Below, piece by piece: positions 5,218 through 62,173 of a DNA stretch of 64,000 nucleotides. The notes below the pieces were generated by a model. That model worked only from the letters and a program-made list of their open reading frames with translations, was not told the DNA's origin and did no database searches. Position numbers and translations under genes: made by a program. Location: positions 25,616,733 through 25,680,732 of the forward strand of contig OX439044.1 of assembly GCA_949317995.1 (NCBI GenBank), written 5' to 3'. Source of the DNA: Acholoe squamosa. Its lineage: Eukaryota; Annelida; Polychaeta; Phyllodocida; Polynoidae. Each line of letters begins with the position of its first letter. Position 1 is the first letter of the stretch.

Positions 5218-48805
<43,588 letters not shown>

Positions 48806-53522: not shown

Positions 53523-55306
53523 TTTTCTGTTGTGAGTAAGTTGTCTCACCTTAATGGTAGGCCCCTATACTTAAATACATCAAATAATTGTTAAGAAACG
53601 TAGGAGGTCCATAGCACTGTTTAGAAGAGAAAGGCGTATGTGTGTGTTGTCTGTGTCTTGTGTGTTCGATATGTATGTGTCTAGAGTATGGAAATACAGT
53701 GAAACATAGAGATCTTTTTAGTTCACAATGTTTAAAATATGCGTTTCCACACCAGAATCAGCGAAATCTGTCCTCCACATATTAAATACAGCTAAGAGTT
53801 ATACTACTTTTACTCTGGAAATGTATAAATATAACACAAGATGAGAATGAAACATAAATTGTTGACCTTTAATATGATAATGATATATATTATGTAGGTT
53901 GATTTGCAAAAGATTGTTATTTCATACATTATGTAGCTCGCTACGTCCACCTGTACATGCAACTTATTGTAAATTATATATATATATATGCTATGTGACA
54001 AAGATCACTCCTCCGCAATGTACTGATGATAATTATTTACTATATCCGAGAGTGTTGCTAGTTGGTCCCACAGGGCTATTTGGTGGTCATTAGATTTAGG
54101 ATTGGGGGGGGGGGGTATGTATGTAAAAAGGACTCCAAGCCTATCGCCTGTCCAGAGTAAAGGTCTAACTGAGTAGGAACAGCTTCTAATGATGTACAGA
54201 GTCTATGAATGATAAAAGATGGCATGTACAGTTAAAAATAATAAACAGATTATGAATCTACTTGAAAGTAGCACGAAATGTCTTCATTGTTATCTTTTAA
54301 CACACACAACAAAACTTCCTGGATATCCCAACAGAATAGCAAGGATGGTACAGTATAGGATAGGTTACTCCACACAGTCCTATAGTGAAGGCCAACCCCC
54401 CTCTACCTCCCATGAAACTATTTATGTCTTAACTATTGGGCCCTATGTAGGATAAGGGGGTTTATGGAGCTATCATGTATCTTTATGGAAGGGATATCAA
54501 ATGAAGCGAAGGGACCACCTAAACCAAAAAATCATGCTAAATCCAAAAATGATAGTCTTTATTCTCAGACTTTGACTGAAAGTACCTAAAATTGAGGTTT
54601 GATGGAAATATTTTAAAAATGTACTAAAGTGATATTGAAAATAATTGGAAATCTTTAAAGATACATCTCAATCAATGTTAGTACCTCAACCCACATACAC
54701 AAATGATGCCTATCTCTCAATCTGACAAATACTGTGTCTGTGCATTGCTCTGCCTATCCCACATACACCATATCAATTAGTGTACCTATCACTCATCCTG
54801 CCTATCTCTTCAATCTAAAACATCAAGAGTTAAATCTAATTATCTCTTAAAATGCTTGGATTCTCATGCTTACCTCTAACCTTACCTTAGCTTATCTGTT
54901 CCTTCTTACCATTAGTCTACCTATCCTCAATCTGCCTATCATTCATTTTACCTATCCCTCATGGTGACTATCCCTCAGGCCCTATGTTAAAACTGCATTG
55001 TTCATCTAAGCCTCAATGATTAACAGTACATTGCTTATAATGTCTACTATTTTGATCTTACCTATCCTTCATAATTCCTATAATAAAATCTACCTATCCC
55101 TCATTGGGCCTATCCCCCAACTGTGCACATCCCTCATATTTGACTTGCATATAGGTCCCTAGCACCATGCTTTCTTTCTTTTATGTTTGCTCATCTTACA
55201 AGGTACTGTCTGTGCCTATCCTTTAAACTGCTTATTGTTCATACTACCTATCCCTCTTGCTACCCATCCATTTGAATACCTATCCCTCATGTTCTCTATA
55301 TAGCTG

Positions 55307-55415
55307 ACATATGAGTGGGCACTGACACATTCCCCTGTGAAATTGTGTAATGTAGTTCTCGCCATGAATATGACCTTAGCTGTCGAAATGGCGTTAAACA
55401 TCTATTACTCACTCA
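55307..55415 (+). mobile_element. SINE-like insertion in the left arm with 13-bp target duplication
   Basis: Flanked by ctctatatagctg at 55294-55306 and 55416-55428. The body acatatgagtgggcactgac ... actcactca matches the copy at 22363-22471. The other arm (about 56893-56910, inverse) has one uninterrupted copy of this site. Confidence 0.88.
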
Positions 55416-55716
55416 CTCTATATAGCTGGCTTACCCATCTCATTTCTCTTAACCTACTATGTCCCAAACAAACTTTATTATTATGACCATTCCATAGTCA
55501 ACCTATCACCCAAGGGACTGGCTCCACAGTCTACCTTAATCATACATCTACCTATCATTCATGCTGCATATCATTCAGTTTACCTATCCCCCAGTCTGTC
55601 TGTTCTTCATAGTGTACATATCCCCTGGTCTGCCTAAACAACTCTCTTTATACCACTCACATTGTGTTCTTTCTAACTAACTTTTAGTAGATGTTTAATA
55701 AGCTAATAGATCATGG

Positions 55717-55814
55717 ATGTTGGAGCCCTAGGGGAGTCTATGCTGGATATACCCGAGCCGCGGAGCGGCGAGGGTATATCCAGCATAGACTCCCTGTGGG
55801 CTCCAACATCCACG
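55717..55814. mobile_element. Foldback hairpin with C-GGA-G tip
   Basis: Arm ggatgttggagccctagggg then agtctatgctggatatacc is mirrored by ggtatatccagcatagactc then cctgtgggctccaacatcc. The tip is cgagccgcggagcggcgag: stem gccgc/gcggc with triloop gga, then a GA/GA mismatch, then the long arms of about 38 bp. Confidence 0.9.
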
Positions 55815-55889
55815 ATTTCCTCCATTTTGTATTAATTTCTTACCTGATATCCAAAGATTATAGCCAGGAGAATACATTTTGTAAAAGCA

Positions 55890-56375
55890 AGCGACACGGC
55901 CCGTGTCCGCTCTGCGTGAAGCCATTGTTTTTGTTCCTTGCCGCTGTGTATACAGTCACTTTTCGTATCGAATCCAACCATGACACGTTTTCAAATTAAA
56001 ACATACATATCCTTAGACAGTCTAGATGATCCCTCCATACGTATTATGTCCAATATATTCAAAATAAAGGAGAATCCATTGATTTTTCCATCGTAAGCGA
56101 GTCGCGGTCCGGCCATTCCCACCCGCCTCCTTGTTCGGCGAAAGTGTGTCAGTGGCCCGGATGTAGATATAGGTCAACTGCTCGTCGTACAAGAAAGACG
56201 CCGAAACAATGGCTTCGCGCAGAGTGGCCACGGGAAAATCAATGGATTCTTATTTATATCAAACAAAATGGAGAAAATTAGCACGCATTCCTCGTCTATG
56301 GATCGAATACTTCTTGGGATTTTAATATTATAGCATGTCATGGTTGGATTCCATACGAAAACTGACTGGAAACAT
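55890..56375. repeat. Nested inverted and repeated segments at the core of the 3.3 kb inverted repeat
   Basis: ttttcgtatcgaatccaacc (about 55962) against ggttggattccatacgaaaa (about 56342); gagaatccattgattttt (about 56071) against aaaatcaatggattctta (about 56235); ctctgcgtgaagccattgtt (about 55909) against acaatggcttcgcgcagag (about 56206). The last pair has a different centre, so the core was rearranged. It includes aatggcttc and GC-rich blocks. Confidence 0.65.
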
Positions 56376-56423
56376 AGCAGGTTAGAACTTATTTACCTTC
56401 GCATTGGATTTCATCACCGTTCA

Positions 56424-56500
56424 GTGTGGCGCTATGGCTAAGGCCTTTGCCTACCACCACTGCAGTCGGGGTTCAATCCTCATACGAGTTTGGACGATTT
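56424..56500 (+). mobile_element. tRNA-derived SINE head
   Basis: gtggcgctatggctaaggcc resembles an A box and ggggttcaatcctc contains a B box (ggttcaatcc), spaced as in a tRNA. The element probably runs on to about 56650. It lies where the two arms of the inverted repeat stop matching, so it probably inserted into the right side only. Confidence 0.6.
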
Positions 56501-58413
56501 TTCACCTTGAAACAATGGCGAGGCTAAGTTTCTATGTCCGCCAACGTCTCCAAAAATATTCTAAGTCCAACTTGACCTCGAAAAAGTATATACCAAAAAT
56601 TCTAAAAACGCACAAGGGTGGTATATGCAGAATATACCACGTATATATCGCATATAAAACCACCGGAAGTGCCAGAATAGTGGTATAATGAAACATACAC
56701 CCCATTGTATTTCAGGGATATGCAGAGGGATATGCATAGCAAACATGAATGATATGTAGAATGGAGGATAGGCACAATGGCGGATAGGCATATATCACAA
56801 GGCTAGACCTGGAGATAGGTGGAAGGAATTGAACACAATTTTAGATCTTTATAGAGAGAGAGCTGGCTAGATTGACTGAGCTGAGATAGGTAAGAAAGCC
56901 ATATGGAGAGCATGAGGGGTAGGTACTGGTTATCAAAAGGATGGGTAGCAAGGGGGATATGTAGTATGAGCAATAAGCAGTTTGAGGGATAGGTACAGAC
57001 AGAACCTAGTAAGATGAGCAAATGTAAAAGAAAGAAAACATGGGTGATAGGGACCGATATGCAAGTCAAATATGAGGGATGTGCACAGTTGGGGGATAGG
57101 CTCAATGAGGGATAGGTAGACTTTATGATAGGAATTATGAAGGATAGGTAAGATCAAAATAGTAGACACTATAAGCAATGTACTGTTAACCATTGAGGCT
57201 GAAATAAACAGATGAACAATGCAGTTTAAACATGAGGGTCTGATGGATAGTCACCATGAGGGATAGGTAAAATGAACGATAGGCAGATTGAGGATAGGTA
57301 CACTATGGGAAAGTGATTACAGAGGAGAATAGGTAAGGTAATGAGTAAGCTTTAGTATTTAGGCCTTTTGGGAGATAGTCTTACATTGCTCAGGATGCTT
57401 TGGATTTAAGAGATAGGCAGTATGGGTGATAGGTAGACTAAGAGTTGGGCAGTATATGGGATAGGCAGAGCAATGCACAGTTAGAGTACTTGTCAGATTG
57501 GGAGATAGGTAGACATTTAGACATGTACACCGAGGTGCAAACTCTGGATTACATTTATCTATCTAAAAAGACTTCTAATCATTTCAATATTACTTTTGTA
57601 CATTTTGAAATATTTTCATCATCAAACCTCATTTTTGGGTACTTTTGGTCAATTTCTGAGAATCATGGTCACGCATTCTTCCCCTTTGGTATCACCCTGA
57701 TAAAGGAATACCACAGTTCCATAACCACCAAATCCTCTATAGAAATATACACTGAAGCCACAAGGTAGCTTAGTTTCACGGGGGGGGGGGTGTAGAGGGG
57801 GGTGGCCTGTCACAGTCTACCCATAGACTATACTCTCAGTGACCCCTCCTATTGTGTCTAAGCTCCTTGAGAATAGTGTATAGGGGTTTGCCAAACGTTC
57901 CCCTCAAGAGTCGATGAATTATATTTAAAAAGAAAAATATGGGATCAGGATATAGAGTAGCCGTGGGTATTACTGGCACCTTAAGGACAATTCCCCCTGG
58001 TGGCTTCCGTATGAACTTATTCGCCCAATTTCTACCATTATTGATGATCATGTGATTGTAAATATTGTGGGTATTACTGGCATGGATGGGATATTATTGG
58101 CATGGGTGAATGTATTACTGGCACCCACATTTTCACCTGCTATAAATTCATTTTCTCACAACCAATATCATTTATACCTATGAGAGGACCTGTCAATGCT
58201 TCTCGTTTTTTTATTTGGCATCAAGGTGCATCCTGCTACCTGGAACTGATCACTAGTCTGATCTAACAATATTAAAGTTGTTGAACGATGTGCAACGGGC
58301 CACAAGCTGTTGTGTTGAACATGATGCTTGCAAGTTTTAACATCCGGTTAAAAAACTAATTTCCTGGTCCAACACTTAAATCAATATATACAGGGATACT
58401 TATTTTATACCAG

Positions 58414-58643
58414 TTAACCCTTTATGAGCTACTTTTATATCAATGATCCATGGTCATTGGTCATCATAATGCATGAATGCAGGCCTGACGGGTCTATGCA
58501 CCAGGACTGCATTCATGCATCATACCAACCCTTGGGAAGTATCTATATCATATAGGGTCAGTACGATTCATTGATGCACTCACACATCAGAGCAAAGCAT
58601 AGGCATTTATGCATTTATTCACTAGCAGCCTGTAAAGGGTTAA
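58414..58643. mobile_element. piggyBac-like MITE with TTAA duplication
   Basis: TTAA at 58414-58417 followed by ccctttatgagct; agcctgtaaaggg followed by TTAA at 58640-58643. CCC-start ends plus a TTAA target fit the piggyBac superfamily. An internal hairpin atgcatgaatgcag / ctgcattcatgcat spans 58472-58521. Confidence 0.82.
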
Positions 58644-59258
58644 CAAAGAACTATTATACAGTTTAGTTCTCATTTTTAATACCTCCCCCGTTAATACCTC
58701 TCACATTTTTATCTATTCTGGTAATAGGGGAACTCTCTGAAGATGGTATTTGACCAATCATAGATCTAGTTGAGGTGGTACTCTTCAAAGTTGATTACTC
58801 AACCTACACACAATGAGAGGCTGATATCTTTATATTCTCTATATCTAGAGAATACAACATACACATATATGACAATCTTGTTAATGAATTATGTATTTAA
58901 AGCTTAATGATTTCTGAAGGGAAAATACACCATATGCCCTGAAAAAAAAATCTCCACAAGTCAGAATGATTGGGTGCCAGTAATACCAACAACTGCACAG
59001 ATACGATATTACTGGCACCCCCTATGAAGTCAGCCATTTTTAAAATCCTATTCAAAATTATTAGCGTGGTGACTCAAGGTAATACTAGTGAGACTAGTTG
59101 ACTTGTGTATGGTTCAGTTGCCACGGTGTAAAGGATAGGGAGGCCCTGCAATCTATTTTTAGCATGGTGACTCTAGGTACTACTCGTAATTCTAATGTAA
59201 TAACAACAGTGTGCGTGTACTTTACTTATCAGTGAAGTAGTTTTCAGATTATATATCA

Positions 59259-59489
59259 TACCGTAATCTCCCGCGTATAAGACACGTCCTCTATGCCAAA
59301 CAAAATGCTGGGGAGTCTTATAGCTTTCTCTCAAGTTTGGGGTGCGTCTTATACGAGGGGTACTTTTACTATAGAAATGTACTTATCTTACAAGCATTAA
59401 AATGTGCGTCTTATACGCAAAAATGCATGTGCTGAGTTTGGGGTGCGTCTTATACGTGCAAGGCGTCTTCTACGCGGGAGATTACGGTA
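59259..59489. mobile_element. MITE, TACCGTAATCTCCC family
   Basis: Ends taccgtaatctcccgcgtat and ctacgcgggagattacggta; 231 bp. Same internal blocks as the copy at 53286 but inverted. Confidence 0.9.
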
Positions 59490-59812
59490 CTTTTGATTTT
59501 ATTCACAGATTAGATATTTCATCATTTGGAGCCCTATGGTCGATTAGCATTATGTAGTACAGGTTTGAAATTAGGGGGTTATGGTATATTGGGGTCATAT
59601 TGTCTGTATTTGGAGAGGACGTTTACTGTTTAAAATTGGGGAGGGGGTGACCAGTTTATGGGGGGAGCGGTTGTAACCACTTTGCCTGAAGGCTGAAGGC
59701 CCTTTATTTCATGTTGAGAACGATAGACTCTATAGTTAAGCACAGGGAAGGCCATTCTCCATCAGGGCGTGAGGAAACTAAATCTCATTCTCCACGGCTC
59801 CATTCTCCACTA

Positions 59813-59885
59813 TGACGTCATCAAAATAGCCTCAACCCCTTTATCAAAAAGTGATTTTTAAACTGCTGTCTCCAGACAGCAGTTT
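59813..59885. promoter_or_regulatory. CRE-like site and 26-bp palindrome
   Basis: TGACGTCA at 59813-59820. At 59860-59885 aaactgctgtct, cc, agacagcagttt forms a perfect 12-bp-arm palindrome. No gene is nearby in this window, so a role is unproven. Confidence 0.35.
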
Positions 59886-60338
59886 ATTTATATCCATACT
59901 GGAAAGCACCATTTACCTGGAATCCGGATCGTCAGAAATCGAGTATAGAATCTGACTGGTCTCTCCCTCCCCTCCCACCCTTCTTGCCCGCCCAGACAGT
60001 TATAGTTGGGTCCTGACTGCTCATTTTGACCGGTGACCAGGATTTAGACTATAAATGTATGGGAGGGTTATACTCCCTTTGTCCGGTCTGCCCTAGAATG
60101 CTGCAGAATGCTCCCGCGGTCCCCGTCTCTGATTGGCTGTGATTGCACAGTTAGGCGGACACATATGGATGCATTGACCCCATCACTGGCGCCAAACACA
60201 CAGTTAGGCACCTGAAAATCGCTCTCCACATCATAAATTTATATGGTATGATTTATTGAACATTGTGGACAGCAGTTTACAAGAGCTATGCTCTCACTAT
60301 CTTTAGACAGATTTACTCTGCAAGAACGTAAAATAAAT

Positions 60339-60451
60339 ACAGAGTTCAACTCAGATTTGTCTTTTCAGGTTGTTTCTTCACGAGTTGGAGACAGCCTGAC
60401 ACCCATGCATGAAGAAACAACCTGAAAAGACAAATCATCGTTGAACTCTGT
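60339..60451. other. Hairpin with 42-bp arms and 29-nt loop
   Basis: 60339-60380 and 60410-60451 are inverted copies; they differ only near the middle (ctcag against cgatg). This could be a small foldback element or a hairpin transcript source. Confidence 0.8.
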
Positions 60452-60834
60452 CTATTCACTTATCTTAGTAGGCTATAGTCAGTCCTTACTTCCTCGACCC
60501 TTTAATTCCTCCGATCCCTCATTACCTCAGACAAAGGATTTGTAACATTCTACATGTTTTCTATAGTATTTGGACTTAAATCCGTGAATATTTTGCTTCC
60601 TCAGACAATTTTCCTAGCATTTGCCAAATTCGAGGAAGTAAGGGCTGACTGTATGTGGAACTGGTCACGCCTGAGCAGTCCCAGGCACACGGTGTTATTC
60701 AATGCCATTACAACACCTGCTGTACCCTCACTGAGGATAAGTGCAGTTCTTGAGGGACACCTACATATGCACATTCTATGGAATAAATGCCATCAGTAGT
60801 ACACCCCAATGCCTCTATTAAGGGCATATATAAC

Positions 60835-60946
60835 AAATAGAGGTGCACTAGGTGATTCTAGGGGCAGATAAGAAGCACGAGGCCGTAGGCCGAGTGCCTT
60901 CTTATCTAGCCCATAGAATCACCGTGTGCACCTCTATTTGTTATCT
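60835..60946. mobile_element. Foldback hairpin with C-GTA-G tip
   Basis: aacaaatagaggtgcac and gtgattctaggggcagataa in the left arm pair with ttatctagcccatagaatca and gtgcacctctatttgtt in the right. The tip is gcacgaggccgtaggccgagtgc (22-23 nt region): stem ggcc/ggcc with triloop gta, a GA/GA mismatch, then gcac/gtgc. Confidence 0.9.
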
Positions 60947-62173
60947 ATGGCGTTTATACCATGGTTTCCACCATTAAATTAAATGTATTCACCTTAAAAA
61001 GCCATGAAAATCAATGTTATTTGTTGCGAGTCGACATAATCCGTCCTCCACCATCTTGGTTTGTCGGCGAGACGACAAGATTGCCTGGACGCAAAGTGTT
61101 ACGTTGATGTGTGTCCTAGGGGCATTTTCATAGAAGAACCGCTGCTAAGTAGCGCATACACCGTGCGGAATGGCTTCAGACCATAGGCCAACGTGACAAC
61201 GTGTGTCTTGCCTCGGTAAACAATCCGTCCGCTACGCAGTCAACACGACGGCGAAAATTTAGCTCGATTCGATTTTTATATCATCAATCATGTTACATAT
61301 ACATGTCAAATCATGGCAAATTAAAGGTAGGTGATAGAATATAATGTCAAGATTCATCATGTGTAGCTATTAAGCTTCTAATGCTATGGGTTTTTTTAAT
61401 ATCAAATTAAATTCTTTGATGTCAATTTGCTGTCACATCGTCTCGTCTCAAGTGTCAACATGGGTTCATTTAGCGCATACTATTCAAACTTCAATATCCG
61501 CTCCAGGCACCGTAAAATCATTCAAGAACGTGATAACCATGGTATAAGATTACATGTACATAGCCAACATTGGTAGGTACCCTGTTTGGGTTGGTATGAT
61601 CTCTGTCAGTCAGTCAGACTGTCAGTCAATATGCAGATGTGACACAGTATTTTCGGTTATATATAGTACAGTAAAAAGAATATTTACATATTTTCACACA
61701 TTTTCTATTATTCTATCACCAACCTAAACTAGACACAAGATTACAAGTCGCCGTGCCATATCTCACAGGACTTTTCTCTACTATTCTATCAAAATCTACA
61801 ACTTTATGATTTCATTGTCCTGGTAGACAGATGACATCATTAGGAAAAGGAAATATCACAGAAGTTTACAAAAAAAACTCAACTTGAATTAGGGAGAAAA
61901 TGGTCTCAAGTTGATCACCCACTTAGCAAAAGTCCTAAGAACACTTTTTTGTCAGTTGGTGAATCATGGACTAAACTTTCAAAGGGAAGTATCATACCTT
62001 ATAAACCTGATTTACTTATCATTTTGCACATGGGGTAAGAGATGAAGGTCCCAAGAATAGGCTAAAAAAAGTGGAAAAAAATACCTGCAACCTCATTTAC
62101 ATATTGCTAAATCTGCAGCACTATGATAGGGTGCCAGTAATCCCCCCATGCCAGTTATACCCACGGCTACTCT

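Follow-up and report, generated by a model that had tools for sequence, protein, structure and literature searches.

We analysed a 64,000-nucleotide stretch of the genome of the polynoid annelid Acholoe squamosa (contig OX439044.1, positions 25,616,733 to 25,680,732; hereafter the window, which represents 64 kb of a 1.48-Gb genome in 63 contigs), and found that each of two long hairpins in it forms, with near certainty, the left end of a non-autonomous transposon of its own. The transposons, designated A and B, represent two related families of small mobile elements with hundreds of copies or more in the genome. Together with families C and D they are related transposon families, in which the hairpin is the left terminal module. 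The shape of this module is kept while its sequence changes, which suggests that the element is mobilized as single-stranded, folded DNA. We tentatively prefer to read it as a folded-DNA recombination site with a giant hairpin, of which a single strand is used, the enzyme most likely being a tyrosine recombinase, in the manner of integron attC sites.

Two hairpins and the transposons that they terminate

Two hairpins whose tips combine GA opposite GA, a GC stem and a C-closed GNA triloop had been described in the original prediction, and both the sequence and the folds agree with this description (coordinates in Table 1). As DNA, hairpin 1 (family A) folds to -54 kcal/mol (z -13.0) and hairpin 2 (family B) to -55 kcal/mol (z -16.2), with none of 200 shuffles as good in either case; both hairpins are real, far beyond chance. 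From the base, hairpin 1 is composed of a TA/GT 2x2 loop, a 24-bp inner arm, GA/GA and GCCGC(GGA)GCGGC, and hairpin 2 of a TA/GT 2x2 loop, a bulged inner arm, GA/GA and GGCC(GTA)GGCC. DNA GNA triloops and tandem sheared G.A pairs are stable structures. Three further features, absent from the original prediction, are common to both: the outer TA/GT loop, placed after nt 30 of the element, the TAAG 5' end of the elements, and the 22-mer tail TTTATACCAYGRTTTCCNCCAT that adjoins the hairpin on its inner side. A 113-nt palindrome without a GNA tip (60339-60451; 84% complementary, 1-nt centre) lies ~370 bp to the left of B.

The boundaries of the elements were examined at 38 A loci (L001 and L009 being the window copy) and 30 B loci (L039 being the window copy), chosen as best-scoring matches. 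Family A runs from TAAGCTAATAG at the left to GTGGTATAA at the right, and family B from TAAGGGCATA to CCATGGTATAA, with lengths of 990-1244 bp in 29 distinct A copies and 666-736 bp in 28 B copies. These boundaries are sharp in most copies; some A copies (e.g. L006 and L017) are without the standard right end. Asymmetric terminal inverted repeats of the 8-15 bp class are present in both families (TTATACCACG / CGTGGTATAA in A, TTATACCATGG / CCATGGTATAA in B), the subterminal repeat lying ~125-135 nt from the element end and the hairpin stem comprising 52-56 bp. The window copy of A has undergone a 21-bp deletion between two CCA copies; the GT that forms the 3' part of its core, the left half-site and the start of TTTATACCAYGRTTTCCNCCAT are lost. 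The first-look searches gave 1470 and 3880 candidates for two A queries, 2163 for B and 1637 for D, numbers that mix families and are not copy counts, the second A query also taking in a host repeat.

Because the region contains no long open frame (the longest stop-to-stop frame is 116 aa) and none of five translated stretches inside A and B gave a Pfam match at 0.05, A and B are taken as non-autonomous; coding remnants within them were rejected on the same five stretches. We also rejected a parvovirus-like interpretation, in which the two hairpins, 5.2 kb apart, would belong to one genome: they are parts of different repeat families, each with a right end of its own, and the 116-aa limit likewise counters it.

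At one locus (L036) two A copies are joined exactly, GTGGTATAA directly to TAAG, which is the predicted circle or end-to-end junction. Other A copies lie close together on the same strand, at distances of 0.7-2 kb (C3:30026575/30027738, C2:31243340/31244056 and C4:1362690/1364656), and are perhaps tandem insertions of the kind seen in L036.

Families A to D share a tail and a hairpin architecture

The 22-mer tail, the first part of which is an inverted copy of the element's right end, has 932 exact matches in the genome (reversed control 0), and a C-closed GNA loop is found in the representatives of every family and subfamily recognized; the many copies of the tip that the original prediction called for do exist. 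We sampled 15 small loci of contig 1, mainly at rarer variants of the tail. This revealed family C (L087), family D (L092) and, at seven loci, a B2 subfamily; the remaining loci are copies of A, B or C, some of them tip-deleted or truncated (L086, L088, L089, L091) or rearranged (L080). A pattern covering the tail of D matched exactly at 23 sites, and its control at none.

We folded a single representative of each of A, A2, B, B2, C and D. All six form stems of 52-56 pairs capped by a C-closed GNA triloop: GGA in A, A2 and D, GTA in B and B2, GAA in C (the first base of D is uncertain by one). GA/GA stands 3-5 bp below the loop in five of them and AA/GA in C, and a 2x2 loop (TA/GT, GA/GA or AG/AG) follows nt 29-31 in all except A2, where only a single bulge, after nt 32, is left of the outer loop. 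The tip counts were restricted to 47 distinct hairpins with the exact tail, 40 of which have at least 35 pairs. The loops of these 40 are GNA in 30 cases, ATA in two, AGA and TCC in one each and other in six, and C-G closes the loop in 39. In two A-type hairpins (C3:36769731-36769799 and C2:63307786-63307854) both arms read TAGGGGAG (the pattern occurs on both strands, 37 bp apart), and their outer loop seems to have become symmetric.

The stem is maintained by compensatory change

For family A, 15 of 23 distinct hairpins were aligned (three further loci are without the tail), leaving out partial, tip-deleted or rearranged ones (L021, L030, L031, L034, L035, the first copy in L036, L037 and L038); for B, all 29 distinct rows were used. 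In A, 12 pairs have changed on both sides, compared with 7.2 in shuffles (0/500 as high), and the covarying cells number 41 vs 11.4 +/- 2.4 (0/500); 95.7% of cells are paired. The corresponding values for B are 10 pairs (2/500 shuffles as high), 33 vs 12.4 +/- 2.3 cells (0/500) and 94.8%. When the structures are slid, only 34-44% of cells pair. The count of further pair types is unexceptional (reached in 76/500 shuffles for A and 67/500 for B), and it should be noted that all these shuffles ignore the relatedness of the rows. Conservation of the hairpin module as one structure through compensatory change is well supported, and the genome contains what had been anticipated, numerous copies whose arms differ and whose stem covaries.

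The arms had been called entirely different and unrelated. They do differ, but A and B look like distant relatives, or diverged homologues, because their identity is rarely reached by shuffles. With pair-preserving shuffles and one copy per family, the hairpin identities of A-B (0.604), B-C (0.657) and B-D (0.701) were each reached in 0/300, that of C-D in 1/300, and those of A-C (0.537) and A-D (0.541) in 29/300 and 33/300. For the left arm alone (plain shuffles), the numbers out of 300 were 3 for A-B, 0 for B-C and B-D, 50 for A-C, 102 for A-D and 143 for C-D. B and C are 98% identical over the adjoining 62 nt and 66% over the hairpin, whereas B and B2 are 89% identical over the hairpin and 73% over the adjoining 62 nt, a pattern suggesting that the hairpin modules keep their form but are swapped or rewritten at a pace of their own.

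The kinship of the hairpins could also mean that they are passive palindromes, alike by descent, whose arms are made complementary again by gene conversion or template switching from one to the other, with structure and tip having no function. We consider this unlikely. The A-B, B-C and B-D hairpins are indeed related, the covariation shuffles take no account of this, several copies have lost the tip (L030, L031, L034, L038, L061, L089, L091), and conversion seems to occur: one arm of L019 is the exact complement of the other, the tip of L020 is inverted, and so are 6 tips among the first 100 of 295 A matches listed (two hairpins counted twice). Conversion alone would, however, erase mismatches, yet 13-14 of the 15 A rows and 22-25 of the 29 B rows leave the outer-loop positions unpaired (register as given; four A2-type rows can pair across the loop, leaving one or no bulged base). 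Moreover, all six representatives retain an internal loop after nt 29-32 (2x2 in five, a bulge in A2), five retain GA/GA below the tip (AA/GA in C), and C-GNA-G stands atop all six.

A long imperfect stem with covariation might also be expected of a precursor of a microRNA or a long hairpin RNA. Such an RNA-level function is highly improbable: no Rfam family scores above the gathering threshold at either hairpin (the sole match in the window is a tRNA), for which reason an RNA gene was rejected, and in the copies viewed the distance between hairpin and transposon end is constant, as is better explained by a signal for transposition.

Precise insertion into a palindromic target

We compiled 57 distinct joined targets (29 of A, 28 of B), whose consensus is TATAT-N6-ATAWA. 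ATA starts at right offset 6 in 25 of them, compared with 0-13 at each of 12 other offsets tested, and 42 have TA immediately before the last base on the left. Pairing between 5-bp arms is maximal at a spacer of 6 (0.51; other spacers 0.18-0.44), and the motif is present in A and B each taken alone. The target is the palindrome TATAT-N6-ATATA.

The A copy of the window lies in a host repeat, and in all seven fetched paralogues of this repeat (L069-L075) the empty site TTTAA-TGAAAC, or a near variant, is preserved. Empty paralogues were also obtained for at least three other A insertions (L013, L033, L034). At the junctions of at least four A insertions with paralogous empty sites no base is duplicated and none is lost; among the fetched loci no empty site for B was found, and insertion without target duplication thus refers to A only. 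The target-site duplication of a miniature inverted-repeat transposable element (MITE) of a DDE transposon is not seen: N6 equals the six bases to the left of the insertion in just 1 of 57 targets, and the empty sites are intact. The results lend no support to the idea, advanced in the original prediction, that the structure spreads by converting flanking DNA into palindromes, as the hairpins are terminal modules of precisely inserting transposons without target duplication (family A). The suspicion that both hairpins might belong to one ordinary transposon family is justified in part: the superfamily of transposons is the same for both, but it combines hairpin and target in an unusual geometry. 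The earlier observation is confirmed and extended, and its interpretation was half right.

A possible folded recombination site

The half-site of the target recurs in the element, as GGTATAA at the right end and as TTATACC in the inner copy. An integrated element reads TATAT-TAAG-hairpin-GT-TTATACC at its left end and GGTATAA-N6-ATATA at its right end; once the hairpin is folded out, what remains between the inverted half-sites is a core of 6 nt (TAAG..GT), like the N6 of the host. In 41 of 48 matches, counted without de-duplication, TTATACC has GT directly before it, and in six of seven folded circle junctions the GGTATAA end is fully paired with its inverted copy (in L049 only in part).

Where the right end is intact in the copies viewed, the hairpin-side core comes from the element and the other core from the host. 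This points to one strand being kept, because a two-strand exchange would allow either; the copies were retrieved by queries including the hairpin side, which may bias which core is seen. The GNA loop and the G.A mismatches are on one and the same strand in the A-D representatives, the tip has the standard orientation in 94 of the 100 A matches mentioned above, and the top-strand hairpin is more stable than the bottom one in 35 of 38 cases, by a small mean margin of 1.5 kcal/mol.

According to the reading we prefer, the hairpin module would be a folded-DNA recombination site, in which the hairpin (~120-130 nt) sits within the core, and folding it out would place the 6-nt core between inverted half-sites in a geometry matching that of the target. 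The substrate would be a circle, either single-stranded or cruciform. On it, a tyrosine-recombinase-like enzyme would cut the top strand alone, after TATAW; the cut strand would then be joined to the target and the junction left for replication to resolve, as happens with the attC cassettes of integrons. Tip and mismatches, being strand-specific, would show which strand is the right one, and it is plausible, as had been proposed, that the tip functions as a recognition or replication/recombination structure. The more far-reaching idea is that of a superfamily moving by integron-like chemistry, in which a palindromic double-stranded target and a folded attC-like hairpin exchange a single strand through a tyrosine recombinase, the site is defined by shape and not by sequence, and the GNA tip with the tandem G.A mismatches indicates to the enzyme the strand to be used. 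This we regard as possible but rather doubtful. If it is true, the structure-directed one-strand DNA recombination of bacterial integrons has a counterpart in eukaryotes, in which one folded site exists in hundreds of natural variants; these would provide a ready covariation data set for testing the DNA shapes read by a recombinase. We saw no description of a eukaryotic element with such a hairpin-and-target geometry in the open-access literature searched (subscription papers were outside its scope).

Candidate partners and competing systems

Several observations weigh against a tyrosine-recombinase site. We infer the enzyme, because no autonomous partner was found: the genome holds DIRS-like, Crypton-like and Helitron-like genes, and matches to the Crypton-type domain PF12012 (151) and to Phage_integrase PF00589 (147 scored) are abundant, but comparison by eye of the PF12012, PF00589 and PF14214 coordinates with the copies among the matches listed gave no autonomous element with these ends. 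The one near pair among these matches (1.66 kb; L097) is a DIRS-like retroelement, read as such because a 320-aa recombinase stands beside an RNase H-like frame; its recombinase was rejected as the partner, A being merely inserted nearby, in a TA repeat. The recombinase-like frames in L032, L038 and L046 lie outside the A or B ends and none lies between them. Two 0.8-kb flanks of one Crypton gene, inspected by eye, contain no such end and so lend no support to this gene as the partner. Furthermore, the 6-nt count of the core depends on pairing at the base of the hairpin, where the folding program adds one A-T pair; spacers of 4 (0.44) and 8 (0.38) also score well, because many targets are TA-rich; and the additional target half-site could reflect dimer binding by another enzyme.

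Intact tyrosine-recombinase frames are very numerous in this genome, and include a 320-aa DIRS-like class and Crypton-type classes of 352-438 aa, one with at least 17 frames of 437-438 aa. On the 5' side of a gene of the 438-aa Crypton-type class (L098) we noticed TTTTATGCCATGG, one letter off the hairpin-element tail TTTATACCATGG, with no hairpin seen beside it; this may be a chance resemblance.

In the same direction points the published layout of Helitron2/Helentron elements, and an origin as HINE-like elements moved by a RepHel HUH transposase is a serious, if somewhat doubtful, alternative. On the bottom strand, such an element would have 5'-TTATACC at its 5' end and the inverted copy near its 3' end, followed by an unusually long terminator hairpin. 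Like HINE and DINE-1, the elements described here have asymmetric terminal inverted repeats (one terminal, one subterminal by the hairpin), a hairpin outside the subterminal copy, a 5' T, no target duplication, no coding capacity and many non-autonomous copies (PMC3627910, PMC5148889, PMC4067079). RepHel genes are plentiful (87 PF14214 matches, of which 31 lie within open frames of at least 2000 aa). However, HINEs are described in these sources as having a 5-10 bp palindrome, a subterminal copy 20-60 bp from the 3' end and a TT-type or T-rich target (TT, TTTT-T or TNAT-T), whereas here the stem is several times longer and has a fixed internal architecture, the inverted repeat is more distant, and the target is palindromic with a 6-nt spacer. 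No RepHel partner with these ends was found: the 5-6 kb stretches 3' of five RepHel genes, whose true ends are unmapped, are without such a hairpin, which speaks against these five genes as partners. Under this alternative the structure would be a covarying terminator hairpin of strongly increased size, coupled to a palindromic target and suited to tests of end recognition by rolling-circle elements. One RepHel element frame (L076:2602-5001) matches the Pfam family Herpes_teg_N at its start and DUF6570 farther on.

Of the systems that resemble the preferred recombination site, integron gene cassettes (attC, IntI) are alike in the way they work, with limited sequence conservation, a conserved hairpin shape, strand-selecting unpaired features, entry of one strand into a double-stranded site and replicative resolution (PMC8946536). 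This likeness is an analogy of mechanism, not membership: A and B are eukaryotic interspersed repeats with no cassette gene or IntI seen, their half-sites flank the hairpin as well as pairing, and their palindromic targets are dispersed, as opposed to a single attI. For Crypton transposons, tyrosine-recombinase sites are expected to have two inverted half-sites and a 6-8 bp spacer (PMC3212892); this layout, with a matching target, is found here, the element's core appearing only with the hairpin folded out. Crypton-type genes are abundant in this genome; no Crypton copy with these ends was found, and animal Cryptons are reported to be without terminal repeats, hairpins being unmentioned in the main text of the same source (PMC3212892). 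The SE elements of Vibrio, strand-biased circularizing integrative elements with tyrosine-recombinase genes, share the 6-bp crossover and the use of one strand only in circularization; they differ in being bacterial and having few targets, with no inverted repeats detected in the target and no hairpin mentioned in the available part of the source (PMC9345347).

Coordinates and other features of the window

Table 1. Features of elements A and B and of their surroundings (window positions, unless a locus is given)
Feature	Position	Strand	Remarks
Family A non-autonomous transposon	55699..56688	+	990 bp; boundaries from other copies
TAAG, first part of proposed 6-nt core of A	55699..55702	+	
Terminal hairpin of A	55710..55816	+	Folding; covariation across other copies
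TA/GT internal loop of A hairpin	55729-55730 / 55796-55797	+	
GA mismatches of A hairpin	55755-55756 / 55770-55771	+	
Tip stem of A hairpin	55757-55761 / 55765-55769	+	GGA loop 55762-55764
Right terminal half-site of A, GTGGTATAA	56680..56688	+	Inverted copy of hairpin-side TTATACCAC in full copies
Host target of A, right half: N6 (TGAAAC) then ATA	56689..56697	+	
Host repeat	54561..57663	.	3.1-kb inverted repeat with ~16-bp TACCTATCC-type subrepeats; A sits in left arm; paralogues elsewhere in the genome are the source of empty sites
Family B non-autonomous transposon	60819..61547	+	729 bp; from copies and their lengths
TAAG, first four nt of proposed 6-nt core of B	60819..60822	+	
Terminal hairpin of B	60825..60955	+	Approximate limits; folding; covariation
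TA/GT loop of B hairpin	60849-60850 / 60924-60925	+	
GA mismatches of B hairpin	60879-60880 / 60892-60893	+	
Tip stem of B hairpin	60881-60884 / 60888-60891	+	GTA loop 60885-60887
GT, last two nt of proposed B core	60952..60953	+	Far side of hairpin
Left (subterminal) half-site of B, TTATACCATGG	60954..60964	+	
Right terminal half-site of B, CCATGGTATAA	61537..61547	+	
Recombinase-like frame	L046:2182-3102	-	Weak Pfam match; ~300-1200 bp outside B copy
Recombinase-like frames	L032:2748-3317, L038:2911-3285	-	By motif and eye; ~300-1200 bp outside A copies

CpG is reduced in the window. The sequence TGCGCCTTATACGCGGGC or its variants occur in both orientations, sometimes in tandem, at 14543-14577, 18391-18425, 30466-30504 and 59334-59456. 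There are two minisatellites, at 37672-38926 (47-bp unit x 26) and 13033-13726 (69-bp unit x 10), the latter of which keeps frames open on both strands, and a tandem 33-bp unit holding the palindrome TCGACTATAGTCGA at 41784-41873. A tRNA gene is located at 44510-44581 on the minus strand (Rfam RF00005, 54.8 bits).

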